Both the position numbers and the translations under genes were made by a program. Below, piece after piece: positions 5,873 through 44,720 of a stretch of DNA of 48,828 nt. Source of the stretch: an uncultured Clostridia bacterium (GTDB lineage Bacteria; Bacillota; Clostridia; Oscillospirales; Ruminococcaceae); assembly GCA_947629945.1 (NCBI GenBank), contig CANRFR010000005.1:1-48828 (forward strand). Direction: 5' to 3'. The notes beneath the pieces were generated by a model. The model was not told the origin of the DNA, did no database searches, and was given only the letters and a program-made list of their open reading frames with translations. How positions within the stretch are numbered: the stretch's first letter is position 1; each line of letters starts with the position of its first letter.

Positions 5873-6088
5873 ATGGAGATCGATTGGAAACGCAAATTGA
5901 CCTCGCGCAAATTCTGGATATCAATAGCGGGCTTTGTTGCGGGAATTGTGGTGTTATTCGGCGGCTCTCAGGAGAGCGCCGATAAAATAAGCGGCGCTGT
6001 TTTGAGCGGAGCGTCTGTCGTAGGCTACGTGCTCGGCGAGGGGCTTGCCGACAACGGAAACGTCGGCGGCAAGGGGAAAGGAGCGTAA
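5873..6088 (+). CDS. Holin-like small membrane protein
   Basis: This 71-residue protein starts MEIDWKRKLTSRKFW, has one clear hydrophobic segment (ISIAGFVAGIVVLFGG, residues about 16-31), a second weaker one (AVLSGASVVGYVLGEGLA), and a charged glycine-rich tail. The layout resembles small phage holins found before lysozyme genes. AAAGGGGAATGTT before ATG 5873 is a good ribosome site; an in-frame TTG at 5849 is less likely. The lysozyme gene starts 2 bases after its stop. The role as a holin is inferred from size and partner. Confidence 0.68.
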   Translation: MEIDWKRKLTSRKFWISIAGFVAGIVVLFGGSQESADKISGAVLSGASVVGYVLGEGLADNGNVGGKGKGA

Positions 6089-6090
6089 TT

Positions 6091-7014
6091 ATGTCCGTCA
6101 AGCTTAGTGGTATTGATGTCAGCGGATATCAGGGAAACATTGATTTTAAGAAAGTAAAGGCAAGCGGCGTGGATTTCGTTATTGTAAAAGCCGGGTATTC
6201 TACCTCAACGGTGGACACATGGGAAACTAATTTCGCAAACGCCAAAAACAACGGACTTAAAACGGGCGCGTATTGGTACAGTTACGCAAGCTCCATAGAG
6301 CAAGGGAGAGAGGAGGCTCGTGCGTTTGTCAAGGCTCTTAAAGGCAAGCGGCTCGATTTTCCCGTGTACCTTGATCTGGAGGAAAAGCAGCAGTTCGATA
6401 AGGGCAAGGGATTTTGCACTCAGCTTGTCGAAGCGTTTTGCGGCGAGCTTGAAAAGGCGGGCTATTATGCGGGAGTTTACTGTTCTACATATTGGTACAC
6501 GAATTTCGTAGAGGAAAGCGTCCGCGAAAAACGTCCCGCATGGATAGCGGATTACCGTGCCGAGTGCGGCTATACGGGCACTTACGGCATTTGGCAGTAC
6601 GGTACCGGAAAAGTCAGCGGTATTGCGGGAGACTGCGACCTCGATTGGGGTTATGTAGACTACTCGGACTATATAAAGTCTCACGGCTTGAACGGTTATC
6701 CCAAGGAGAGCGCGCCGCCCGACGCGAAAAAAACGGTCGATGAGCTTGCCGCCGAGGTGATAAACGGCGATTGGGGCGCGGGTCAGGAGCGCTATGATAA
6801 GCTCACTGCCGCGGGGTATTCTTACGATGAAGTACAAAATCGCGTAAACGAGCTTCTTTACGGCACACAGCCTAAAAAAGCGCTTGACGAAGTGGCTGAC
6901 GAGGTCATACGCGGCGAGTGGGGCGCGGGCGAGGAACGCTACAAAAAGCTGACCGATGCGGGATATAATTACGAGCAAGTTCAGCGGCGCGTCAATCAAA
7001 AGCTTTACAAATAA
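6091..7014 (+). CDS. GH25 lysozyme (N-acetylmuramidase) with two CW_7 repeats
   Basis: Peptidoglycan hydrolase of 307 residues with no signal peptide. Residues about 4-205 form a GH25 muramidase: GIDVSGYQG carries the N-terminal catalytic Asp and YLDLEE the DxE catalytic pair. Two C-terminal repeats of about 40 residues follow, each with the pattern ELAAEVINGDWGAGQERY ... AGYSYDEVQNRVNELL, which matches the CW_7 (Cpl-7) cell-wall-binding repeat. Lack of a signal peptide and the adjacent holin-like gene fit a phage-type endolysin. No other phage gene is nearby, so it may be a domesticated lysis pair. Confidence 0.92.
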   Translation: MSVKLSGIDVSGYQGNIDFKKVKASGVDFVIVKAGYSTSTVDTWETNFANAKNNGLKTGAYWYSYASSIEQGREEARAFVKALKGKRLDFPVYLDLEEKQQFDKGKGFCTQLVEAFCGELEKAGYYAGVYCSTYWYTNFVEESVREKRPAWIADYRAECGYTGTYGIWQYGTGKVSGIAGDCDLDWGYVDYSDYIKSHGLNGYPKESAPPDAKKTVDELAAEVINGDWGAGQERYDKLTAAGYSYDEVQNRVNELLYGTQPKKALDEVADEVIRGEWGAGEERYKKLTDAGYNYEQVQRRVNQKLYK

Positions 7015-7020
7015 TTTTTT

Positions 7021-7042
7021 CGGCTGCCGTTCAGGGCAGCCG
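7021..7042 (+). terminator. Hairpin after lysozyme gene
   Basis: CGGCTGCC (7021-7028) pairs perfectly with GGCAGCCG (7035-7042). The run after it is AATTATTT, weak in T, but TTTTTT precedes the stem. It is placed 6 bases after the stop codon of the lysozyme gene, as expected for a terminator. Confidence 0.75.
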
Positions 7043-7146
7043 AATTATTTAACAGCATCCCCAAAATATATGGTTTGGAATTTCTCTGCATAATTTAACC
7101 TAAATTTCCAATAATAGGAACGAAAAAGAAACGGAGGAAAATTGCT

Positions 7147-9471
7147 ATGGGAAATCAGAACGCCACACCCGCTTTTTCTAACGAAGCAGCCGAAGCCTTG
7201 GGCTGCGCCATAACTATCGCGGGACAAATGGGACACACATATATCGGCAGCGAGCACCTGCTGTGCGCGTTGGCAAAAAGCACCGAAAGCGCTGCGGGAG
7301 CGCTTTTGGCACGGCACCGCATTCGTTTCCGCGATCTTATTCTGCAGCTTAAAGGGCGCGTAGGGATAGGAACAGGCTCGTCGCTTTCCGAAAACGATTT
7401 TTCGCCGCGTTTGCGAAAGCTTTTAATGAACGCACGGAGCAGCGCCACAGCCAGAAACGACAGCTACGTCGGCACGGAGCATATCCTTTTGTCTATGCTG
7501 ACCGACCGCGACTGTACCGCGTATTCTATGTTGTGTGAGCGCGGCGATAACGTCGCGAAGCTTTACGGAAGCATTTCGGTGAAGAGTTACGAGCCGCCGA
7601 AATTCGACAGCGCTCCGAAACGCTCGGCAACTAAAAAAGCAGACACGCAGCGCGGAGAATTGCCGCAATTGACGAAATACGGTGTAGAACTTACCGTCGA
7701 AGCCCGCGACGGCAAGCTTGATCCCGTTATCGGGCGTGACACTGAGATCGAGCGTATGGTGCAGATACTATTAAGGCGCAGTAAAAACAACCCGTGTCTC
7801 ATCGGCGAGGCGGGCGTGGGGAAAACCGCGGTGGTGGAGGGTTTCGCGCAAAGAATAGCTTGCGGCAGCGTGCCGCCCGAGCTTGCCGAAAAGCGCGTTT
7901 TCGCGCTGGATCTGTCGGCGATGCTGGCGGGGGCAAAGTACCGCGGCGATTTTGAGGAACGCTTAAAAAGCGCGTTGGACGAAGCCGCCGCAAATCCCGA
8001 CGTGATATTGTTCATTGATGAAATTCACATGATAGTCGGCACGGGTGCAGCCGAGGGCGCTATCGACGCGGCAAGTATCCTAAAGCCCTTGCTTTCGCGA
8101 GGAAAGATTTGTCTTATCGGCGCAACCACCACCGACGAATATCGGCGGTTTATCGAAAAGGACAGCGCTTTGGAGCGGCGTTTTCAGCCTATCACCGTTC
8201 TACAGCCCGATGAGGCGGGCGCAGTGTCTATTTTAAGCGGACTTCGCGGCAGACTTGAGGAACATCATCACGCCGTGATAACGGACGGCGCGATAAAAGC
8301 CGCAGTCTCGCTTTCCGAGCGCTATTTGAACGACCGCCGTCTCCCTGACAAGGCAATAGACCTTATTGACGAAGCCGCCGCCAGAGCGCGTACGGAACGC
8401 TTCGGTACAAAGACCTCGTTATTCCGTACGATAAAGGAGAAAATTCCGCGCGAACGCGTGATAGTCGACGAAGAAGACGTTGCCGCAGCCGTTTCCGCGA
8501 TAACGGGTATCCCCGCGGCACGGCTCTCCGAGGATGAGGGGCGCCGTTTGGCAAATCTGGAGGAGATATTGCAAAAGCGCGTTATCGGTCAGGAAAATGC
8601 GGTGAAGCTTGTCGCCAACGCCGTTCGCCGCGGCAGGGCGGGGCTTCGCGACCCCGCGCGTCCGATAGGCTCGTTTCTGTTTTTGGGTCAGACGGGCGTC
8701 GGCAAAACCGAGCTTTCAAGAGCGCTTGCCGAGGGAGTTTTCGGCGATGTGAAGCGTCTCATACGTTTTGATATGTCGGAATTTTCCGAAGCACATTCGG
8801 TTTCAAAGCTGATCGGTTCGCCGCCCGGATATGTCGGCTACGAAGAACAGGGACGGCTTATCAAGGAGGTACGGCAGCGCCCGTATTCGGTGGTGCTGTT
8901 TGACGAGGTGGAAAAGGCTCATCCCGATATACTGACAATATTGCTGCAAATTCTGGAGGACGGCAAGCTGACCGCTTCGGACGGCAGCGTCGCAGATTTT
9001 AAGAACACCATCGTAATTATGACAGGCAACATTGGCGCGGAGGAGCTGCAAAAGCGCGCTTTGGGCTTTGGCGGCGCGAAAGGCGGAAGCGCGGAGGTTA
9101 TGTCCGCGCTCAAAAAGCAATTCCGTCCCGAACTGCTCAACCGAATTGATAATATTGTGGTTTTTGAGCGGCTGTCATCGGAAAATATGCTCAAAATATG
9201 CGGCAAAATGTTGGACGAGGTAGCCAAACGAGCCGCTTGTCGAGGTATTTCGCTGAGTTTCCCGGACGATATCAAAACGCGGTTGTGCGAAAGCGTCTCC
9301 GATGAGGACATGGGCGCACGTCCGCTTCGCCGAAAGATAACCGCGCAGATCGAGGATATGTTGTCTAAACACATTGTCTCCGGAGAACTGCACGGCGGCT
9401 GCTCGGCGGAGGTAGTTGCCAAAGACGAGGGCTTTGATGTAATGGTGCTTCAAAGTTCCAAAACGATATAA
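7147..9471 (+). CDS. clpC: ClpC-type AAA+ unfoldase
   Basis: Hsp100 ATPase that unfolds proteins and feeds them to the ClpP peptidase. The 774-residue protein has a double Clp-N domain (residues about 1-150), AAA1 with Walker A GEAGVGKT and Walker [13 protein letters not shown]2 with GQTGVGKT and [12 protein letters not shown], and a D2 small domain. The loop KRALGFGG holds the LGF-type tripeptide used to dock ClpP. The stretch between IDLIDEA (end of AAA1) and VIGQ is about 40 residues shorter than in Bacillus ClpC, so the coiled-coil M domain (with UVR motif) is missing. It stands alone, without ctsR-mcsAB. ATG 7147 follows GGAGGAAA. Confidence 0.88.
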
Positions 9472-11737: not shown

Positions 11738-12868
11738 TTATAACGCGTTCCTTAGCCGCTCTACGCAATCTTTGACAAGCTCGGCGGCTTTGAGGATCTC
11801 CGAGCGCGTATTGCTCTCCGAAAGCGTCAGGCGAAGCGAACCGAGCGCGTATTTTTCGGGAGTTCCGATAGCGCGGAGAACATGCGACGCGGTTTGCTTG
11901 CCCGAACTGCAAGCCGAAGCCGCCGACGCGCACACTCCGAACAGGTCAAGGCTTTGCACCAGCGCTTCTCCGTCGATATTTTCAAACGAGAAGTTTACGT
12001 TTCCGCATAACCGCGCGGTTTGGCTGCCGTTCAAACGCGAGTGCGGAATTTCGGAAAGCCTTGATATCAGCATATCGCGCAGTTCGGCGATCTTCACGGC
12101 GCGTTTTTCAATATCGTGCGTGATATCCTCGATAGCCGCGCCCAGAGCGGTTATCGCCGCGACGTTCTCCGTGCCGGAACGTATTCCGCGCTCCTGACCG
12201 CCGCCAAAGATCATTGGAGAAAGCGGTGCGCCCTTTCTCGCGAAAAGCAGACCGCCGCCCTTTATCCCGCCTATCTTGTGCGCGGAGACGGATAGGTAGT
12301 CCGCGTTTAGAATCCGCATATCAATGGGAAGCGAGCCGACCGCCTGAACAGCGTCTACATGGAACAAAACGCCGCGTTCTTTACATATTTCGGCAATTTC
12401 TCCGACGGGTTGAATAGTTCCGATTTCATTGTTAGCCGCCATAACGGACACCAGCGCGGTGCAGTCGTCAATTGCTTCGGCAACCTGTTCGGCGTTTATC
12501 AAGCCGTCCGCGTTTGGTTCGAGATAAACGGCTTCAAAGCCTCGTCTTTCGGCTTCACGAAACGCGTTCAGCACAGCGTGATGCTCTATCCGCGTGGTAA
12601 TCATCCTGCGCCGACCGCCCCTGTTTAGTGCGGAGAATATCGCAAGGTTATCGCTCTCGGTGCCGCCGCTTGTGAAAATAATTTCATCGGGAGCCGCCCC
12701 CAAAGCCGCCGCGCACTTTTCCCGCGCTTCAATTATAGCCAGAGCCGCTGACTGTCCCGCGCCGTGCGGGGAAGACGGGTTCGCGAAATTTGCCGTTAAA
12801 AACGGCAATGCCGCTTCCAATGCCTTGGGATTAATTGGCGCGGAAGCGGCATTGTCCAAATATATCAT
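11738..12868 (-). CDS. Cysteine desulfurase, NifS/IscS family
   Basis: PLP enzyme (376 aa) that takes sulfur from L-cysteine to form a persulfide for Fe-S clusters or tRNA thiolation. It has the N-terminal YLDNAASAP block, the PLP lysine in SVSAHKIGGIKG (residue about 196), and the catalytic cysteine loop in SAASACSSGKQTASHVL (about 320-330). No iscU, nifU or thiI gene is adjacent. The gene begins 4 bases after dtd. The class (NifS-like group I) is clear; the sulfur acceptor is not. Confidence 0.93.
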   Translation of the reverse strand: MIYLDNAASAPINPKALEAALPFLTANFANPSSPHGAGQSAALAIIEAREKCAAALGAAPDEIIFTSGGTESDNLAIFSALNRGGRRRMITTRIEHHAVLNAFREAERRGFEAVYLEPNADGLINAEQVAEAIDDCTALVSVMAANNEIGTIQPVGEIAEICKERGVLFHVDAVQAVGSLPIDMRILNADYLSVSAHKIGGIKGGGLLFARKGAPLSPMIFGGGQERGIRSGTENVAAITALGAAIEDITHDIEKRAVKIAELRDMLISRLSEIPHSRLNGSQTARLCGNVNFSFENIDGEALVQSLDLFGVCASAASACSSGKQTASHVLRAIGTPEKYALGSLRLTLSESNTRSEILKAAELVKDCVERLRNAL

Positions 12869-12872
12869 TGTT

Positions 12873-13304
12873 TTACTCCAAAATTATAGTGAACGGTCCG
12901 TCGTTTACAAGCTCCACTTTCATATCGGCGCCGAAAACGCCTTTTTCAATGTGTATCTCCCGAGCGCAAAGTTCGCAGAAATACTCATAGAGCCGTTCGG
13001 CTTCTTTAGGCTCCATAGCCGCGAGGAAGTTCGGTCGGTTTCCTTTTCGACAGTCGGCGTACAGCGTGAATTGCGAGATTATCAATAATTCTCCGTTCAC
13101 GTCCTTTAAAGAAAGGTTGGTCTTGTCATTTTCATCGGCGAAAATCCGCAGTCCTATCAGCTTTTTTGAGAGCCGTGCGCAGTCCGATTCGGTGTCCTCC
13201 GCGCCCGCCCCGAACAGTACCAAAAAGCCGTTCTTTATCGCGCCGACCGTTTTTCCGTTTACCGAGACGCTTGCACGCTCCACTCTTTGTATAACCAGTT
13301 TCAT
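12873..13304 (-). CDS. dtd: D-aminoacyl-tRNA deacylase
   Basis: Enzyme of 143 residues that removes D-amino acids (and glycine mischarged on tRNA-Ala) from tRNA. The two family motifs are present: SQFTLYAD (residues about 77-84) and the C-terminal NDGPFTI, the Gly-cisPro motif, where F replaces the usual V. The GNRPNF block matches G-RPSF of homologues. ATG 13304 follows AGGAAAATT. It is translated just before the cysteine desulfurase gene. Confidence 0.93.
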
Positions 13305-13356
13305 AATTTTCCTTTATCGTAAACTGTCACTCACAGCGTAATTTTCAAAACGGCAA

Positions 13357-14319
13357 TCATCTGTGGTGACCACCTCCGCCGCCATGGTGACCTCCTCCGC
13401 CACCGCCGCCGTGATGTCCGCCCGAAGAGCTGGAGTGGGTGTGCGAGGTGGTGTATTCGCGAACAAATTGGTCTACTTGCCTTGTAACGTTGGTGCAGCG
13501 CCTGTCGACGTAGCTTGAAGCGCTTACCGGGGCTTTTTTCTTATATCCCTTAACTTTACCGTGCACAATGGCAACGCTTATAAAAACGGACACCGCGATG
13601 ATCATTAGGAATCCCGTCGGGTGCTGAATGATAAAATCTCCGAAAAGAACCAAAACTGCGGTAAAGCCGCTGCCGCCGTAGCGTTTTACACATTTCGCGT
13701 ACTCGTTGACCGCCGAGGCGTAATCATAGCCGCCGTATGTGTGAGTACTCTCGTTGTAGGCGTATTTGTTGCCTTGCGGTTCTCCGAGCTTGTCGTATAT
13801 CCTGTTGAGCATTCGGGTGGTTTTGCCTTGAAATTTTTTAACCGCGCCGCCGTCGGTGGATATCCAGTCCTCATAAGTACTGTATAGCGGAACGTTATAG
13901 CTGTTCAAAAACATCAGCATTATCGATTTTGTATACGCTCCGAATACCTCGTCGGAAAAGTCGTCTGTGAACATTTTGTCGCTTTTGCCTTCCAGATCTC
14001 TCGTAATGACCACTCCGACATTCGTGTGAGTTTTCTTTGCGGTTTTTTCGAGAATTTCCAAAAGAGCGCTTTCCTCGGAGTCGGTAAGGCAGTTGTCGAA
14101 GTCGGCAATCAGCGCGTATTCACCGGCAAAGCCCGTTTTCTTTATCAAAGAGCGGTCGTTATAGGTGGATTCGATAAAGTTTTCGTCGTATGACGTTTTA
14201 ACAAGTCTGCCGTCCGCGTTCGCCCGTCTGTCCGTAAAAAGCACGGCTGTCAGCGCGGTAATAAGTGCGAACATTGTAAGGAGAATTGCCGCCGCGCGTT
14301 TCATTTTATGTTTAACCAA
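13357..14319 (-). CDS. TPM-domain membrane protein with Gly/His-rich tail
   Basis: This 320-residue protein has an N-terminal membrane segment (AAAILLTMFALITALTAVLF, residues about 8-27), an external TPM/YgcG-like domain (about 65-185, with LIADFDNCLTDSEESALLE), a second membrane segment (about 230-255), and a tail made only of Gly, His and Ser that ends the protein. The start is TTG 14319 because GGGAGGG lies 8 bases before it; the ATG at 14304 is too far from this site. The TTG overlaps the end of the zinc-ribbon gene. Such tails may bind metal, but the function is unknown. Confidence 0.78.
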   Translation of the reverse strand: MVKHKMKRAAAILLTMFALITALTAVLFTDRRANADGRLVKTSYDENFIESTYNDRSLIKKTGFAGEYALIADFDNCLTDSEESALLEILEKTAKKTHTNVGVVITRDLEGKSDKMFTDDFSDEVFGAYTKSIMLMFLNSYNVPLYSTYEDWISTDGGAVKKFQGKTTRMLNRIYDKLGEPQGNKYAYNESTHTYGGYDYASAVNEYAKCVKRYGGSGFTAVLVLFGDFIIQHPTGFLMIIAVSVFISVAIVHGKVKGYKKKAPVSASSYVDRRCTNVTRQVDQFVREYTTSHTHSSSSGGHHGGGGGGGHHGGGGGHHR

Positions 14320-35600: not shown

Positions 35601-37574
35601 TTAACCGAAACGGGACAAATGCTCTTTCAGCAATGCCGCTTGACTGTCAAGTTCCTCGCTTGCGGCGGCGGAATTTTGCGCTGTGGAGTCCGTTTTTTCA
35701 ATGACCGCCTCAACCTCGCTGAGCTTAACGGATATATCCGCAAGCATAGATTTCTGCTCCTCGGAAACATCGGCTATCTGTGAAACCGAACCGGAAATCG
35801 ATTTCGTTTCCACAACGATTCCTCCGAGCATTTCAGCCGTTGAGTTCACCGCGTCGGTGCCGTTTTCAATCGCCTTTACGGTATGTTCGATAAGCTCCGC
35901 CGTTATCTTAGAAGCTTCTGAGGATTTCGCCGCTAGGTTGCGAACTTCCTCCGCTACAACTGCGAAACCCTTGCCCGCCGCTCCGGCGCGGGCGGCTTCA
36001 ATGGACGCGTTGAGCGCGAGTATATTCGTCTGGAATGCTATGTCCTCGATCGTGGAATTTATCTTGACTATCTCGTCCGCAGAGCGCGAAATGCTGTCCA
36101 TTATATTGACAAGGTCCTGCATTTTTTCGTTGCCCGCGCTTACCGTGCCGGCGGCTTTGAGCGCCTTTTCCTTGACCGAGAACGCGTTTTCCGCGGATTG
36201 TGATACCCTGTTGTTTATGTCGCTGAGATTATCGGAGACCTCAACGATAAGTCTTGTTTCGTCATTGACGGCATGGGCAAGCTGCGACGCTCCTACGGAT
36301 ACGCTGCTCGAACCGTCCGATATCTGTTCCGATACCGTGTTAAGCTCTGTAAAAGTGGAGTTCATGGCTTCGCAGATATGTCTTATGGATTGTTCCATAG
36401 CTGTAAATTCGCCGACAAATTCAACAGAACTGTTATATGCGAACCTGCCGTCCGCCATATCCGAAAGTATCTTCTCTATGCCGTCTATGTAGGATTTCAG
36501 CGACTGATTTGTCCTCATAAGCGCGCTGCAGATAGTGCCGATCTCATCGTTTTCGGCTTTGGGGTAGTTGTGCTCCAGAACGCCGTTGGACATATTTGTT
36601 ACAATATTTTCTATCGCCGACAGCGGCTTCAGACGCTTCGTGAACTTCAGCCAGAAGAACAGACCTCCGCCGAATATCGCCACAAGTGAAACGATCACCG
36701 CAAAAATAATAATATTGTTCAGCTTCGACATCGCCTCGTTGTAATCCGCCGCGTAAAGCACTTTCCAACCTGTATCTCCAATCGGAACTACGGGGAAATA
36801 GCGCATTGTACCGTCATAGCCTTTTCCCGAAACAACATTTGTACTTCCCGAAGCCGCAAGAACCTCGCTGTAAATAGGCGCGATGTCGACCAGCTTTGTA
36901 ACCTTTTCGGTTTTGCCGTCGTCAAGCAGTTTGTGTGAATAATCCTGATTTTCGGCGTGAGCCACTATGTTATCGCTGCCGTCAACCAATACCGCGTATC
37001 CGCCCTCGTCTGCTTTAAGACCTTGGCTTACCGAAACCAGCTCGTCTATCTCAATGTCCAAACCGCACACGCCCAGCACCTCGTTCCCGGACAGCAGCGG
37101 ACTTATAACGATTTTTCCTGTTATCGCGTCAATGTACGGGTCGGTAACTATTGTGGCGCGGGTGCTTTTGGCGCTTTGATACCAGCCGCGCTCCTGTGCA
37201 ACGTAATCCTCGGCTACGGGATAAACGCTGCATACCATTCCAACCGTATCGGTCTCCCACGCGAGATATCCGTTCATAATGCTCTCCGAAGTCGTGTGAA
37301 CAACGTCCAGCATATGTTTTTGCAGTTCGTCGCCGTGAAGCTGCTGTTCCGTTGCAGTCTTGGCAAAATCCTCCGCTATAGTGGTGTGCTTGGTGAACCA
37401 CGTGTCCATTTTCGCCGATTCTGCCGCGACTGTGTGATACAGATCCGATTTAATCGAACTTGTGTACCTTATATTAACGTTCACGGAAAATATAAGACAA
37501 ACCACTATCAGCGCTGCCGCCAACATTCCCGCCGAAGACAACAAAATGCTTGTGAGCAGACTTTTCTTTTTCAT
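35601..37574 (-). CDS. Methyl-accepting chemotaxis protein with dCache sensor
   Basis: Chemoreceptor of 657 residues. Order: membrane helix 1 (residues about 11-33), a periplasmic-side dCache domain (about 40-280; RGWYQSAKS and TDPYIDAITGKIVIS are typical), membrane helix 2 (about 287-308), HAMP (about 310-365), and the signalling domain whose tip reads [19 protein letters not shown]. Cache domains of this type commonly bind amino acids or organic acids. The ribosome site GGAGG lies inside the stop region of the diguanylate cyclase gene 3 bases upstream, so the two are coupled. Confidence 0.94.
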   Translation of the reverse strand: MKKKSLLTSILLSSAGMLAAALIVVCLIFSVNVNIRYTSSIKSDLYHTVAAESAKMDTWFTKHTTIAEDFAKTATEQQLHGDELQKHMLDVVHTTSESIMNGYLAWETDTVGMVCSVYPVAEDYVAQERGWYQSAKSTRATIVTDPYIDAITGKIVISPLLSGNEVLGVCGLDIEIDELVSVSQGLKADEGGYAVLVDGSDNIVAHAENQDYSHKLLDDGKTEKVTKLVDIAPIYSEVLAASGSTNVVSGKGYDGTMRYFPVVPIGDTGWKVLYAADYNEAMSKLNNIIIFAVIVSLVAIFGGGLFFWLKFTKRLKPLSAIENIVTNMSNGVLEHNYPKAENDEIGTICSALMRTNQSLKSYIDGIEKILSDMADGRFAYNSSVEFVGEFTAMEQSIRHICEAMNSTFTELNTVSEQISDGSSSVSVGASQLAHAVNDETRLIVEVSDNLSDINNRVSQSAENAFSVKEKALKAAGTVSAGNEKMQDLVNIMDSISRSADEIVKINSTIEDIAFQTNILALNASIEAARAGAAGKGFAVVAEEVRNLAAKSSEASKITAELIEHTVKAIENGTDAVNSTAEMLGGIVVETKSISGSVSQIADVSEEQKSMLADISVKLSEVEAVIEKTDSTAQNSAAASEELDSQAALLKEHLSRFG

Positions 37575-37577
37575 AAC

Positions 37578-38600
37578 TTATCCTCCGTTATATTGGTTTA
37601 TATCCTTGTGTGAATTATCTTTTTCCTTATACATCAGCGTTTCCGCTTCATCGATAAGCTTTTGCCAATCGTTTCGTAAATTGTTGTTCCAGACCGCTCC
37701 GATCGCCAGATTTACCGAATTTTCAACCGAGCTTTTCCGCAAAAGCTCCAAACGTTTTTGCAAAGTATCCTCGTCAATATCCAAGCAAACGGCAAGCAGC
37801 TCGTCGCCGCCGAGACGTATCAGGACGTATTCTCCAAACGCGCTTTTCAGGCTTTCGGAAGCGCGGCAGATCAGTTCGTCTCCGGCTTTATGCCCCAAAG
37901 TATCGTTGGTTCTCTTTAACCCGGTAATATCGCAGTATACTATCCCCAGACTCTGCCTGTTTTTAATATCGGAAACCAATTCGTCCAGCGCGTATCTGTT
38001 TCCCAGACCCGTCAGATGGTCGCGTTGACTGATTTCACAAAGCTTATTCATCATATCGCGCTGCTTTATCATTGAAACGATAAAATCTCCGACTGCCCGA
38101 AGCGTTTTCAAGGTTCTTTTCATGCTGCGTTTCGGAGGATTGTCTATACCGTAAAATCCAATGACATTTTCACCGTTGAAAAGCGGAACGACAATAATCG
38201 AATGAATATTCTGACTTTTCAGCTTTTGGTATTGCAGCGGATAGTTGGGAAGCATTTCCTCTATGTCGTCAAAAATGACATCTTTGTTCTCGCTGAAAAA
38301 ATTATACCAGTTTTCGCAGACATTTGGCGGCAGATTCTGAAGATTTTCTTTTTCGGAAGTTACTCCCGCGGCAGTCCATTCGTATGTATTATCATCTCCG
38401 CCGCGCGAATTTTTTTCAAAAACATAGGTCCTTTCTCCGTTCAGCTCTTTTCCGAGAAATTCAAGGATAATATCAATGGATTTCTCCGGATCAGGTTCGC
38501 ACGCGGCGCGTTTTATTCCGCTGTTTACGCGGGTTTCGATTTTCCTTTCCGCTGTAATGTTTTTAAACAGACCTTTCTCCCTCATAAAATTGTTCTCCAT
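37578..38600 (-). CDS. GAF-GGDEF diguanylate cyclase
   Basis: Predicted soluble enzyme of 340 residues that makes cyclic di-GMP. A GAF-like sensor domain (residues about 35-185, SIIVVPLFNGENVIGFYGI) is followed by a GGDEF domain (about 190-330) with RDHLTGLGNRYAL, the substrate block TNDTLGHKAGDEL and the active-site loop RLGGDELL, a GGDEL variant found in active enzymes. The I-site RxxD is not evident. Start ATG 38600 is used; ATG 38585 is an alternative. It is the first gene of a two-gene unit with the chemoreceptor. Confidence 0.9.
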   Translation of the reverse strand: MENNFMREKGLFKNITAERKIETRVNSGIKRAACEPDPEKSIDIILEFLGKELNGERTYVFEKNSRGGDDNTYEWTAAGVTSEKENLQNLPPNVCENWYNFFSENKDVIFDDIEEMLPNYPLQYQKLKSQNIHSIIVVPLFNGENVIGFYGIDNPPKRSMKRTLKTLRAVGDFIVSMIKQRDMMNKLCEISQRDHLTGLGNRYALDELVSDIKNRQSLGIVYCDITGLKRTNDTLGHKAGDELICRASESLKSAFGEYVLIRLGGDELLAVCLDIDEDTLQKRLELLRKSSVENSVNLAIGAVWNNNLRNDWQKLIDEAETLMYKEKDNSHKDINQYNGG

Positions 38601-38641: not shown

Positions 38642-38670
38642 ATTATAACAAAATCCGTTGCGATTTTCAA
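38642..38670 (-). promoter_or_regulatory. Promoter of the diguanylate cyclase-chemoreceptor unit
   Basis: On the minus strand TTGAAA (38665-38670) and TATAAT (38642-38647), 17-base spacer. Confidence 0.82.
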
Positions 38671-39102: not shown

Positions 39103-39849
39103 ATGAACCGTTTGACTAAAATAAAGCTTGTATTATGCGATAATAACGGCGCCGATTTGAGGGAGTTGTGTGAATCGGCGGACGATTACATAAACCAACG
39201 CGGTTTTTACGGGGAAACTATATGCTTTTCACAATCGGAAGATGTTTTGAATTATTCTGAGAAAAGCGATGAAAACAGCGTTACAGTGTATCTTCTTGAT
39301 GTGATAATGCCGGAAATTGACGGCATTGCTCTTGGCAGAAAAATACGTGAGCGCGACAAAAACTCGGTGATCATCTATATCAGCACCTCGCGGGAGTACT
39401 CCCTGGACGCGTTTTCCGTGCGGGCGTTTTCATATCTGATAAAACCGTATTCGCGTGAAAAATTGTTCTCGGAGCTTGACGAGTGCCTGAACCGAGTCGA
39501 GGTTGAACCGCAAAAGCTCTCAATAAAAACCACCGAGAGCACGATGCTTCTTTCAATGTCGGATATTATTGCCGTAGAGTACCTTAATCACAGATTGATC
39601 TTTCACACTGTGAACGGAGAAAAAATTGAAAGTGCGTACCGCAGGCAGTCGTTTGACATTCAGGCGGAGTTGATTTTACAGACAGGGGTATTTTTGAAGA
39701 TTTCCGCAAGCTATCTGGTAAATTTGCGGAATATTCAGGGGATAAAGGGCGACGAGTTTGTTATGTGCGACGGTTCTCAATACAAGATCACTCGAAAATA
39801 TGCCGCCGCAAGACAGCGATATATAAATAATGAAGTGTCAAATGATTGA
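39103..39849 (+). CDS. LytTR-type response regulator
   Basis: Two-component regulator of 248 residues: receiver domain (residues about 5-125) with acidic pocket, phosphorylation Asp in YLLDVIMPEIDG (residue about 66) and the conserved Lys in LIKPYSREKL, followed by a LytTR DNA-binding domain (about 140-240; FLKISASYLVNLRNI). The first ATG (39103) directly touches its GGGG ribosome site; TTG 39112 is spaced better and gives the receiver-typical start TKIKLVLCDN, so it may be the true start. It is likely the partner of the histidine kinase encoded 187 bases downstream. Confidence 0.92.
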   Translation: MNRLTKIKLVLCDNNGADLRELCESADDYINQRGFYGETICFSQSEDVLNYSEKSDENSVTVYLLDVIMPEIDGIALGRKIRERDKNSVIIYISTSREYSLDAFSVRAFSYLIKPYSREKLFSELDECLNRVEVEPQKLSIKTTESTMLLSMSDIIAVEYLNHRLIFHTVNGEKIESAYRRQSFDIQAELILQTGVFLKISASYLVNLRNIQGIKGDEFVMCDGSQYKITRKYAAARQRYINNEVSND

Positions 39850-40010
39850 GAGCATGTATTCATAGGATATTGCACGCGTCTTTTCGGCAGATTTTACCGC
39901 TGACTGCGTTAAAATTTCTTGACTTGCGACAGCAAGCCCGCGAAATTTTGCCTTGTCAGCGACAAAATCTGCTCGAAAATCCACGCACAAATCCTATGAA
40001 CACAAGCTCT
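39849..40010. mobile_element. MITE-like palindromic element, about 162 bp
   Basis: The left arm GAGCATGTATTCATAGGAT (from 39850) matches, inverted, GAGCTTGTGTTCATAGGAT at the right end (to 40009), and the match continues to CAGATTTT on both arms with small gaps, about 46 bases in all. The centre holds AAAATTTC/GAAATTTT and TTGTC/GACAA palindromes. It starts exactly at the stop codon of the response regulator gene and fills the gap to the kinase gene, so it likely inserted into a former operon junction. Confidence 0.7.
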
Positions 40011-40035: not shown

Positions 40036-42078
40036 ATGTTAGCATTTGTAACAACGGTTTTCTCAGAAGCGGTAAATTTTGTTTTGTACATATTCGTGTG
40101 CTTAACTCTTATGAAGCCGCGGTTTTCGTTTGGCGCACGTGTTTTGAGCTGCGGTCTGACGATCCTTTGCTCGTGCGGCGCGGTGGCGGTTCTCACGCTT
40201 TTGGGCAGCGGTATGGCGGCGCTTACGCTGCTGCCGCTTATCGCGTATCTGCCCTTTTCGATTTGCGCGTTTATTATTTCCGAGGGCAGCCTGTTTGAAG
40301 CGGCGGCAGCGTGTTCGATCGCGGCGCTGACGGCGTTGATCGTCAAGCTGTTCAAGAAAATTATGTTGTCGCTGTTCAGTCAATTATTTTCAGGCGTGGT
40401 ATTTGATATTGTCGTTGCGCTTATGGTGCTTATTCTCGCGGCGGCGGAGTCGTTTATCGTGTCCCGATATGTTCGTAAGCCATTTGAAGTATGCACCGGC
40501 TCGGACGTGAAAAGCCGGATGTTGGTTTTAATTCCCGCTGCGGCGCTTTCACTGATGATTTTTGTTAATTTAAACAGCTTGCCGTCCACCATGACGCTTA
40601 TTATAATTTTGATGATCGTGGTATCTTTTTTTGTGATAACATCGCGGCTGTTTATATATTCTGCAAAAATTGCCGCGGCTGATGAGAACGAAAAAAAACT
40701 GTTTGAAAGTTTGAATTTGCAGCGGAAAAACTTCGAGCAGCTTTCGCAAAACGTTGACTCGGAACGGGTTTACCGTCATGATATGCGGCATCATCTCAAG
40801 GTGTTGAGCGGTATGGCACAGCAGAGCAAGTCCGCGGAAATTCTGGAATATATTGAGAATTTGAACGATACCGCCGAGCTTTGCACGCCCGAGATATTCT
40901 GCAAAAATCCCGCGATAAACGCGGTAATATCGGAATATATAAACCGAGCGAAAAATAACGGCTGCCGTATTGAATATAAAATTTTCATACCGGAGGAGCT
41001 TCCGTTCGAGCTGCCGGACGTTTGCATTATTCTCTCAAACGCGCTTGAGAACGCGCTGAACGCGTGTGAAAAAAGCCCCGAGGATAAGCGTTATGTAAAA
41101 TTTCTGGCGGATTTTTCGGACGACCGCAAGCTGAAAATTTCAGTAAGAAATTCTTGCTTGGGAACGGTGGAGATCGACGCAGACGGTCTGCCCGTTGTTG
41201 AAGCGCGGACCGACGGTCACGGTATCGGACTTCGCAGCGTGAAAAAAACGGTTGAGAAATACAACGGCTTTATATACTGCTCATGTGAAAACGGGGAATT
41301 TCTGTTTTGCGCCGAGGTATTCCGTAATCCAAACGGCAGCTCTCAAAGCAGTAAAAAAACCGAACAAAAGCTAAAATGCTCAAAGGCTCTGCCCGCTTTA
41401 CTTACATCGTTTGTCTGTGCGATAGGTCTGCTGAATTTCTCGCCGGAAACCGCAAGCGCGTTATCCGATATTTTTTCCGTAGACATCAAAACTCTAAGCT
41501 ACGGTTGGGGCGATAACGTTTTTAATGCGCAATATCCCGAATTTTCAGGAGACAACTCAGAAAAGCTTAACCAAGCCGCCGAAGATTTTATCTCCGAAGC
41601 AAGAGAAAATTTCCAAAAGTACGCGCTTCAAAAATATGAGGGGTATGTTGCGGAGGACGCGGGATATCGTATTATTATTAATGATAGAAAGTACCTGTCG
41701 GCAAGATTTTACGCCACGATAAACGCAGGCGGTTCTATGGAATACAGCCGCTGTGTGGTGCTCGATAAGGAAAGCGGCGAGGTTCTTGCTCTGTCCGACT
41801 TGTTTGATGAAAATTATAATTATATTGAAGAAATAAGCGCGGAGGTGCTAAGCCAGATGGAGTTCGGCGTACAATATATGGGCGCAAATTATTTTATCCC
41901 CGGAGGTATCTGGAGCGACGACGAGTGCTTCAAAGAAATTTCACCCGATCAGGAATTCTATCTGAATTCGGACGGAAAACTGGTGATCGTTTTTGATGAG
42001 TATACGGTCGCGCCCGGAACGGAGGGTTCTCCCGAATTTGTAATGCCCGATGAGATTTTTCGTTACAACGGGAATTGA
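40036..42078 (+). CDS. GHKL sensor histidine kinase fused to an RsiV-like extracellular domain
   Basis: Membrane kinase of 680 residues. Residues 1 to about 210 hold six hydrophobic segments; a coiled linker leads to the phospho-acceptor block YRHDMRHHLKVLSG (His about 246), then the ATPase domain with N-box LSNALENALNACE and G-box GHGIGLRSVKK (to about 440). Beyond the usual end of AgrC/LytS-type kinases lies a further membrane helix (KALPALLTSFVCAIGLLNF, about 448-467) and a 200-residue domain. This domain resembles the DUF4163/DUF3298 part of RsiV: KYLSARFYATINAGG, VVLDKESGEVLALSDLF, FYLNSDGKLVIVFDEY, and PEFVMPDEIF. RsiV senses lysozyme in Bacillus. The fusion is continuous in one frame. 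Confidence 0.86.
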   Translation: MLAFVTTVFSEAVNFVLYIFVCLTLMKPRFSFGARVLSCGLTILCSCGAVAVLTLLGSGMAALTLLPLIAYLPFSICAFIISEGSLFEAAAACSIAALTALIVKLFKKIMLSLFSQLFSGVVFDIVVALMVLILAAAESFIVSRYVRKPFEVCTGSDVKSRMLVLIPAAALSLMIFVNLNSLPSTMTLIIILMIVVSFFVITSRLFIYSAKIAAADENEKKLFESLNLQRKNFEQLSQNVDSERVYRHDMRHHLKVLSGMAQQSKSAEILEYIENLNDTAELCTPEIFCKNPAINAVISEYINRAKNNGCRIEYKIFIPEELPFELPDVCIILSNALENALNACEKSPEDKRYVKFLADFSDDRKLKISVRNSCLGTVEIDADGLPVVEARTDGHGIGLRSVKKTVEKYNGFIYCSCENGEFLFCAEVFRNPNGSSQSSKKTEQKLKCSKALPALLTSFVCAIGLLNFSPETASALSDIFSVDIKTLSYGWGDNVFNAQYPEFSGDNSEKLNQAAEDFISEARENFQKYALQKYEGYVAEDAGYRIIINDRKYLSARFYATINAGGSMEYSRCVVLDKESGEVLALSDLFDENYNYIEEISAEVLSQMEFGVQYMGANYFIPGGIWSDDECFKEISPDQEFYLNSDGKLVIVFDEYTVAPGTEGSPEFVMPDEIFRYNGN

Positions 42079-42416: not shown

Positions 42417-44720
42417 ATGGATAACTTAAAAAAGCAAAAAGGCTCTGATAAAGAGCAAAAGCCTAAGGATAACTTAAAAAGGCAAAAAGGTTCTGATAAA
42501 GAGCAAAAGCCTAAGGATAACTTAAAAAAGGAAAAACGCTCTGTAAAAGAGCAAAAGCCTAAGGATAAATTAAAAAAGCAAAAAAGCTCTGCTAAAAAGC
42601 AAAAGCCTAAGGATAACTTAAAGAAGCAAAAAGGCTCTGCTAAAAAGCAAAAGCCAAAGGATAACTTAATAAAGCAAAAAGTCTTTGCTATAAAGCAAAC
42701 GCTTATTGATATCCTAAAAAAGCCGAAAGATCTGTTTAAAAAGCAAAAGCCTATTGATAACTTTAAAAAGCGAAAAGGCTCTATTAAAAAGCAAATGACG
42801 CTGATAGTCAGCTGTATAATCGTGCTGCTTGTCGCAGGACTGCTTGTGGCGGGGATAATTTCGGGACGCTCTGCTATTGAAAGCACCGTATTGCAGGACT
42901 TTAATACTATGACGCAGTTTGCGGATCAAACGTTCCGCACGGCTATTTCCAACTTAAAACGTGATATCACGGATTTTACCAAGGAATTCAACAGAACTTT
43001 AGGCTTCGGTCCGAGAAACGCTTTGCAGTACGCGTCGCAGCTTGACGTTGAAAGTTCGTTCTTGGAATTCGCATATGCGGGCGAAGACGGAACGTTCTTC
43101 ACGACCGATGAGATTATCGACCAAAGCGTTGCCGAACAGGATTTTGCGCAAAGAGCTTTTGAAGGTGAGACCACTGTTTCCACGTCGATACAGTGCGGCG
43201 ATACGCTGCGGTTTATCGTTACGTCTCCATGCAAAGGCGGCGTACTTATGGGTACTATTGACATGGAGTTCTTCAGCGATCTTGTTTCCGATAAGAAGAT
43301 ATGCGATACGGGCAGCATTTTCATGATAGACTCAAACGGCGTTATGATAGCGTCCGTTGATACGGATCAGGTGTTTGAACGTCAGAACTTTATTGAAATG
43401 GCTGAGACCGACGGTTCGTATGAGTCAACGGCGAACCTCTTTATTCAAATGACCGAGGGAGCGTCGGGTATTGACAAATATAATTATTTGGACATAAAAA
43501 TGCTGTGCGCTTACGGTACGGTAACCGATTCGGACGGATGGTCTTACGGTATTTCCGCTCCCGAAAATGAAATCTACTCGGCAATACAGCCGATGGTGAT
43601 AGCGCTGCTTATTTGTGCGGCAGTTGCTTTGGCGCTCGGTATACTCGCGATAACGGCGTATGCGAGCAAGCTCTCAAAGCCGATTATCCAGATGTCAAAG
43701 CGTATGACGCAGTTGGCGCAGGGCGACCTGTTCACGCCGGTCAACGTAAACGACCGTAAAGATGAGATTGGGATTCTGGCAATGCAGTTTGGCGATTCGC
43801 TGTCTTCTCTCAAATCCTACATTCGCGACCTCAGCGAGGTGCTTCAGGATATGTCGGACGGCGATATGCTTACACGACCGCAGATTCATTATGCAGGCGA
43901 CTTTGTCGCAATAGAGAAGTCGCTTAAAAAGATACTTGGCTCGTTTAACGGCATTTTCAGCGAGATCAACAAAGCCGCCAATAAAGTGGCGGACGGTGCG
44001 CAGACGGTTTCCGAAGGTTCGGAAAAGCTCGCCGAAGGTTCGGAGCAGCAGGCGGACGTTGTATCTCGGCTTATGTTGACGCTTCAAGAGCTTTCCGAAG
44101 CGTCGTCCGATAACGCGCTTACCACACAGAGCGCCGGGAAGAACGCCGACAAGGCGGGAGAACAGGTGAAGGGCTGCAACCAAAGGATGCAGGACGCTGC
44201 CGAAGCTATGACGGATATCAGCGATTCGGCTGTGCAGATAGAAAAAATTATCGTTACTATTGAGGATATCGCATTCCAGACCAATATTCTCGCGCTGAAC
44301 GCCGAAATAGAGGCCGCAAGAGCGGGAGAAGCAGGCAAGGGCTTTGCTGTTGTAGCCGACGAGGTTCGTAACCTCGCTAATAAGTCCGACAAAGCTGCCA
44401 AGGCTACAAAACAGCTTATCGATCACTCGCTTGACGCGGTAAACCGCGGTTCCGCAGTAGTCACCGACGTTTCCGAGCAGCTCAGCCAATCCACCGAGAG
44501 AGTGCTGCAAGCAGTTGACGACATGAAGAGCGTTTCCGAAGCCGTACGCCAGGAGGACGAACGCATTCAGCAGATAAGCGAGAGCATTATGCGGATAAAC
44601 GATGTCGTTCAGTCTAACACCGAATCTGCTTCGCAAAGCGCCGAGACAAGCCGCGAGTTGTCTATCCAAGCGGAGAACCTCAAAAAGCTTATGGAGAATT
44701 TCCGCTGCAGAGACATTTGA
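42417..44720 (+). CDS. Methyl-accepting chemotaxis protein with Lys-rich N-terminal repeats
   Basis: Chemoreceptor of 767 residues. Residues 2-129 are eight tandem 16-residue repeats ([16 protein letters not shown] and variants), very basic, on the cytosolic side before the first membrane helix ([18 protein letters not shown], about 130-147). A Cache-like external domain (about 160-375), a second membrane helix (about 392-415), HAMP, and the signalling domain with tip [19 protein letters not shown] follow. Normal receptors have only a few residues before the first helix, so the basic repeat tail is a clear addition. GAAAGGACGGG precedes ATG 42417. Confidence 0.92.
42420..42803 (+). repeat. 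48-bp coding tandem repeat, eight units
   Basis: The unit encodes D-N-L-K-K-Q-K-G-S-x-K-x-Q-K-P-K. Units 1-5 are nearly identical in DNA, units 6-8 are progressively diverged toward the membrane helix, as expected if the array grew outward from the old start of the receptor. Confidence 0.92.

Follow-up and report, generated by a model that had tools for sequence, protein, structure and literature searches.

In a 48,828-nucleotide stretch of an uncultured Clostridia bacterium of the Ruminococcaceae (contig CANRFR010000005.1, positions 1 to 48,828; hereafter the window), a histidine kinase was found to continue, behind its ATPase domain, into an extra membrane helix and an ectodomain of the RsiV type. 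Its gene stands beside that of a LytTR response regulator. Domain identity, architecture, conservation, partner and operator-promoter layout were read from sequence. Tentatively, and with slightly less than even confidence, we propose a two-component system in which the RsiV-type outer half of the kinase would bind a lysozyme-like muramidase and signal through the LytTR regulator to chemoreceptor and other genes. The kinase gene and its parts, with the basis of each assignment, are:

40036..42078, forward strand: histidine kinase with C-terminal RsiV-type ectodomain (P0001), 680 residues (open reading frame (ORF), Pfam, RsiV model, alignment)
40057..40656, forward strand: N-terminal membrane region, residues 8-207, six or seven helices (hydropathy)
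40771..40794, forward strand: H-box YRHDMRHH, residues 246-253, with presumed phospho-acceptor H248 (invariant in 44 aligned fusions)
41014..41307, forward strand: GHKL ATPase domain HATPase_c_5, residues 327-424 (Pfam, E=6e-16)
41386..41442, forward strand: extra membrane helix, residues 451-469 (hydropathy; net charge +4 in the kinase-side flanking segment)
41452..41460, forward strand: signal-peptidase-like A-S-A, residues 473-475, at the RsiV site-1 position (motif test, control on other helices)
41461..42075, forward strand: RsiV-type ectodomain (DUF4163/DUF3298), residues 476-680 (Pfam, RsiV model, fold match)

Relatives were collected by a contig scan in which the best 80 of 258 were kept. 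Fusions were drawn from these with duplicates left out, a few being cut at one end, yielding a set of 55 proteins (54 distinct and that of the window), 44 of which were aligned in full. The window ORF starts with ATG, preceded by AAGGTG, and has no internal stop, in agreement with a preliminary description of the window that had read kinase and ectodomain as one continuous frame. The same description had named a GHKL kinase with YRHDMRHH, N- and G-boxes; the H-, N- and G-boxes and the GHKL ATPase domain are all present, and R244, Y246-H253, N335, N339, G396 and G398 are invariant in 44/44 fully aligned fusions. Its six-helix N-terminus stood as a polytopic membrane region and not as a count of exactly six: seven hydropathy peaks were found in the window protein, which suggests six or seven helices, and four to seven in relatives with an intact N-terminus. 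The additional helix it had placed after the kinase was recovered as a peak above the hydrophobicity threshold in 54 of the 55 fusions, L044 falling narrowly below. Polytopic N-terminus, GHKL core, LytTR partner and paired direct-repeat operator are shared with AgrC/LytS-like kinases, from which the window kinase differs by the membrane helix and large ectodomain added after the ATPase domain.

The C-terminal domain had been likened to DUF4163/DUF3298 of RsiV, and this was borne out. DUF3298 was matched in Pfam at residues 587-671 (E=8e-13, above the family cut-off), the DUF4163/PdaC half below its cut-off (E=0.003), and the NCBIfam RsiV model spanned residues 441-675 at 128 bits, under its equivalog cut-off of 250. 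The fold match to PDB 5JEN covers the ectodomain including the DUF4163/PdaC half. By profile and fold, the ectodomain is a true homologue of that of RsiV (PDB 5JEN), the Bacillus subtilis lysozyme receptor, whose described role is that of anti-sigma-V factor. The window protein shares with RsiV the ectodomain and fold, the membrane helix and, by sequence, a motif at the position of the signal-peptidase site and a following segment that lacks the PVLG core; it differs in its contact loops, in having a histidine kinase in place of the cytoplasmic anti-sigma region, and in its adjoining genes, which encode LytTR, GGDEF and methyl-accepting chemotaxis proteins (MCP) and no extracytoplasmic function (ECF) sigma factor. 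No further DUF3298 match was found in the window genome (97.75% complete). The ectodomain would lie outside the membrane, because the kinase must be inside and one helix follows; with that proviso, the earlier picture of an external RsiV module on a kinase paired with the adjacent LytTR regulator holds in homology and gene pairing.

A search for the fusion in other genomes had been suggested as a check, and the same kinase-ectodomain join was found in 54 distinct proteins besides that of the window. In a tree of the sensor domains, 56 fusion sensors (the 55 and one from L062) formed one clade with an ultrafast bootstrap of 100, so the fusion probably arose once. When the tree was rooted on one distant DUF3298 protein, a chosen root, the fusions fell inside free RsiV, with a support of only 60 for those inner branches. 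The distribution is patchy: the fusion was present in 10/37 genomes of the genus of the window and in 0/24 other genomes of the order (E < 1e-100). With the best two or three candidates per genome scored, the search of the class (393 genomes) gave one other full match and that of the phylum (299 genomes) one partial match. No paper on an RsiV-type ectodomain fused to a histidine kinase was found in open-access full text (top listings of larger result sets), consistent with the earlier statement that the architecture was undescribed. Every part is of a known kind; what is new to us is their combination, together with the transplanted anchor and the regulon.

Several variants of the fusion were seen. 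In L062 (Candidatus Ventrousia; 6061-8045, 12329-13770) the fusion kinase is split over two frames, and a free RsiV-type gene lies 4 kb off, preceded by a gene that by eye resembles an ECF sigma factor. Longer fusions of 754-876 residues (L054, L057, L059, L060, L063-L068, L070, L071 (shortened), L073-L075) contain additional sequence inserted between the anchor helix and the RsiV domain. A fusion-type kinase frame in L078 (5872-7785) continues past the anchor into unrelated multi-helix membrane sequence and is possibly an assembly chimera.

Upstream of the kinase gene the following were mapped:

39103..39849, forward strand: LytTR response regulator (P0003; Pfam); the true start may be a TTG at 39112, common to relatives
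39853..40010, no strand: palindromic genomic repeat of about 158 bp between regulator and kinase genes

A cognate LytTR regulator alongside is common for GHKL kinases. With all ORFs considered, the regulator adjoins the fusion kinase in the window and in 42/54 relatives. Among the 12 relatives not counted as adjacent, the regulator was found nearby in L043 (overlapping the kinase by 113 bp), L074 (divergent), L068 (0.8 kb downstream) and L036 (2.1 kb upstream), and about 1.4 kb off on the other strand in L045, L047 and L050. L039 and L071 are near contig ends, and no LytTR regulator was present in the fetched stretch around L028, L061 or L073. The palindromic repeat is matched 46 times in the genome, in 18 cases over nearly its full length, and folds at -72 kcal/mol (z -8.6). 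Its insertion may weaken co-expression of regulator and kinase, because the gap is 97 bp or less in relatives with an upstream regulator.

Candidate control elements were located on the far side of the regulator:

38676 (or 38678)..38730, no strand: three direct repeats of period 20, candidate LytTR operator, between the regulator and the divergent GGDEF-MCP pair
38642..38670, reverse strand: promoter TTGAAA-17-TATAAT, exactly 7 bp from the repeats and facing the GGDEF-MCP pair

The operator pattern was defined as two 12-bp direct repeats of period 20, and genomes were scanned with up to 3 mismatches. Paired sites were found in 7/61 related genomes (G000, G014, G020, G021, G028, G031 and G033), with none for the reversed-pattern control. 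These same seven genomes hold the regulator matches better than 1e-57 (next best 1e-36, the line being drawn after the list was seen). Co-occurrence of operator and regulator gave a Fisher p of 2e-9, or 1e-7 within the genus, values that are optimistic because the operator genomes are related and the E-value line was drawn afterwards. At 17/22 distinct sites a promoter (at least 9 of 12 positions) starts exactly 7 bp past the second repeat, compared with 0.7% in shuffled sequence; none was found at offsets 0-6 and 8-14, and one to three in places at 15-28. In two of the five exceptions the promoter is displaced by a further 11 or 21 bp, roughly one or two turns of the helix. LytTR sites are given, in a passage of one report, as two repeats of 9-11 nt that are 11-13 nt apart (PMC4847170), and the candidate sites agree in layout, with a 20-bp period that fits this spacing and a promoter near. 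By layout, the repeats are the likely operator of the LytTR regulator. The operator is not a general feature of the fusion family: among loci L020-L099 (up to 5 mismatches; shuffled control 0) it was found only in L020, L021, L023, L024 and L026, and L022, which is closely related to the window, has none. Because it is also seen next to a regulator of a different type (L144, L158), the operator may be common to related LytTR proteins.

The candidate targets in the window, and the large secreted proteins behind operator sites elsewhere, are:

37578..38600, reverse strand: GAF-GGDEF protein, candidate target (Pfam)
35601..37574, reverse strand: methyl-accepting chemotaxis protein, candidate target, 3 bp from the GGDEF gene
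L168 416-3775; L166 2336-6016; L169 523-3063: large secreted proteins behind the operator

By Pfam, the products encoded behind the sites are chemoreceptors, one GAF-GGDEF protein, one CheY-like protein and large secreted proteins. Among the last, Listeria-Bacteroides repeats occur in one, and another has NPATG at its end, which we take to be a sortase-like signal. In the window genome, sites stand before the GGDEF-MCP pair, before a chemoreceptor gene that is unlinked (C1) and before a broken secreted repeat-protein frame (C80). In G014 and G020 sites also precede the fusion kinase itself; the usual promoter distance of 7 bp is lacking there. The lysozyme or cell-wall defence output implied by the preliminary description was not supported: the sites that were followed precede chemoreceptor, GGDEF, CheY-like and surface-protein genes instead. 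A similar repeat protein ending in NPSTG (L172 6-1964) was noted near a regulator and not behind an operator site. Resistance genes beside the system were also considered, and none for lysozyme resistance was seen in the neighbour clusters, with Pfam run on ten of many neighbours; three of the ten had no family, and the rest were three chemoreceptors and one each of a GGDEF protein, ABC transporter, solute-binding protein and GGGtGRT protein.

In RsiV, according to passages of two reports, lysozyme binding frees an amphipathic segment, and signal peptidase then cuts at A-x-A just outside the membrane helix (PMC4183432, PMC6066255). This anchor stretch is retained in fusions, as a comparison of an RsiV-type protein (R118, NVSPTFAHA/MAEVPVLGSVARVLTF) with a fusion (L039, NCMPTLALA/LEQIPVLGAAVRIVDL) illustrates. 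A signal-peptidase-like motif follows the helix in 44/55 fusions (29 with strict A-x-A) and, by the same test, in 18/24 free RsiV proteins. As a control, A-x-A was found after the anchor helix in 36/55 proteins versus 48/332 for all other helices. At the sequence level, the window stretch, NFSPETASA/LSDIF, contains the site motif and not the PVLG core of the protective segment. Six kinases (L076, L077, L079, L081, L084 and L086; genes at 5.3-7.2 kb) retain the kinase and the RsiV-type anchor segment and then end, with no ectodomain. Four have A-D-A and two A-D-T (L079, L081); five of their records are titled Oscillibacter or Oscillospiraceae and one Firmicutes. An unrooted kinase tree without outgroup, which does not tell loss from original absence, groups them with support 0.90. 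We prefer that they lost their ectodomain, because they keep the RsiV anchor. The anchor, which the preliminary description did not see, appears to have been transferred together with the ectodomain.

Lysozyme contacts in 5JEN were taken from Table 2 of PMC5014341, with P259 added from its mutants; E88 and S93 lay outside the alignment, and 15 positions were compared. Free RsiV was represented by 24 proteins picked from the class search, the 7 nearest 5JEN and 17 others. The two loops were located by the contact alignment:

41716..41751, forward strand: saddle loop 1 (RsiV 163-174), window T561-R572, TINAGGSMEYSR
42001..42027, forward strand: saddle loop 2 (RsiV 255-263), window Y656-G664, YTVAPGTEG

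Across the 55 fusions, S169, the contact that matters most in RsiV, is retained in 54, P259 and G260 in 50 each, and Y255 in 46. Identity of free RsiV to 5JEN was 63% at contacts vs 52% elsewhere for the nearest seven, and 44% vs 32% for the other 17. Within the fusions, conservation was higher in contact columns than in the remainder (p=0.002). Fusion-type residues occupy five of these columns, and N165 (54/55), Y139 (52/55) and G168 (45/55) are near-invariant residues of this type at contact positions. In free RsiV the corresponding difference was not significant (p=0.16).

Against the proposed lysozyme-sensing system the following have to be set. The window protein retains only 4 of the 15 contacts, S169, Y255, P259 and G260 (S567, Y656, P660 and G661). 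Fusions keep 2 to 6 per protein, against means of 9.4 in the seven nearest and 6.6 in the other 17 free RsiV proteins, and their identity to 5JEN shows no excess at contacts (31% vs 30% elsewhere). Lysozyme binding is not obligatory for DUF4163/3298 proteins, as Rv1980c did not bind (PMC5014341). The clade of the window lacks the PVLG core, and 11/55 fusions fail the signal-peptidase motif test. The seven operator genomes are kin, and while the regulator is 55-100% identical to that of the window in six of them, it is only 38% identical in G031. No cell-wall defence gene was seen behind the operator sites that could be followed. Finally, in G021 and G033 the partner of the window-type regulator (69% and 67% identical) is a plain GHKL kinase, 434-436 residues long and lacking an ectodomain:

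L161 2623-4673; L171 339-2401: regulator and plain-kinase loci

In these two genomes the sensor differs, with regulator and operator retained. A fusion kinase is also present elsewhere in each of them, so cross-talk is possible. The low count of kept contacts lowers the lysozyme reading, and with it the idea of lysozyme-driven shedding as a positional cue, and raises two others, in which the ligand is different or the ectodomain does not sense.

That the ectodomain senses a non-lysozyme ligand in the same saddle, a peptidoglycan fragment or other surface ligand, is a serious possibility that we hold at rather less than even. Likeness to RsiV is no higher at the contacts than elsewhere, yet the contacts are strongly conserved among fusions; the binding site may therefore be under strong selection with a shifted partner, either another type of lysozyme or something else. 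The near-invariant fusion-type residues suggest such a change, and a regulon of chemoreceptors and surface proteins fits a positional cue. The fold and the contacts S169, Y255, P259 and G260 are nevertheless retained, and changes at E163 and D225 say little because free RsiV proteins vary there too.

With either ligand, the switch could act by shedding: the ligand would free the anchor, signal peptidase would remove the ectodomain and the shortened kinase would change state. We regard this as possible and somewhat doubtful. It draws on the preserved anchor-cleavage stretch and on the six sensorless kinases, which end right after it as if already cut. BlaR1 beta-lactam sensors offer an analogy in layout, with a cytoplasmic effector between membrane helices and an external C-terminal sensor; their effector is a metalloprotease and their sensor penicillin-binding, against a kinase and an RsiV-type sensor here, and no metalloprotease or penicillin-binding Pfam match was found in the window kinase. 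For BlaR1, one report tells of the sensor domain being removed at a site resembling that of signal peptidase (PMC4183432). On the other side stand the fusions without the motif by the test used, the A-D-T of L079 and L081 in place of A-x-A, and common descent, which alone would conserve part of the anchor sequence. Unlikely in our view is the extended form of this idea, in which a lysozyme-type ligand lets signal peptidase cut off the ectodomain and so, by way of the phosphorelay, leads to expression of chemoreceptor, diguanylate cyclase and surface-protein genes, host lysozyme being a positional cue for gut commensals (several record titles suggest a gut origin).

A role without sensing, in which the N-terminal helices would sense a peptide as in AgrC and the ectodomain would only block lysozyme or stabilise the protein, is also improbable. 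The N-terminal region is polytopic and partly conserved, plain kinases serve the same regulator type in G021 and G033, and RsiV itself inhibits lysozyme (PMC5014341); set against this, the contact columns are the more conserved ones, and the fusion is maintained in 55 proteins of one clade. An assembly or frame artefact behind the join, for which no evidence was found, has practically no probability, being refuted by the 54 further distinct fusions, two of which come from records titled as strains and not as metagenome-assembled genomes (Faecalicatena orotica, L064; bacterium 1XD42-1, L038).

For the proposed lysozyme-sensing system, ligand class, topology, switch and direction of regulation are what we infer, as follows. 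A kinase would have acquired the RsiV-like outer half, consisting of membrane helix, signal-peptidase site, following segment and ectodomain. Lysozyme or a lysozyme-like muramidase would bind the saddle between the two ectodomain loops and alter the anchor helix. Through the direct link of this helix to the ATPase domain, phosphorylation of the adjacent LytTR regulator would change. Phosphotransfer from kinase to regulator and activation of LytTR are taken from known families. The regulator would bind the paired 12-bp repeats that lie close upstream of the -35 box and would activate chemoreceptor, diguanylate cyclase, CheY-like and surface-protein genes, and perhaps the kinase gene too. The usual input of a kinase is N-terminal; here the anchor comes after the ATPase domain, and movement or shedding driven by ligand would reach the kinase from its C-terminal side.

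The RsiV sensor and its anchor seem to have moved, probably once, onto a different signalling machine. Nature thereby offers a test of whether the anchor-cleavage device can be carried over to another protein, of what the RsiV fold recognises once contact residues have shifted, and of how a kinase can be driven by a sensor that follows its ATPase domain. With the operator and target list, the system can be tested by reporter.

Downstream of the kinase gene, a 48-bp unit is repeated about 7.9 times (window 42419-42795) at the 5' end of an MCP gene (42417-44720), where it encodes a lysine-rich 16-residue unit before the first membrane helix.
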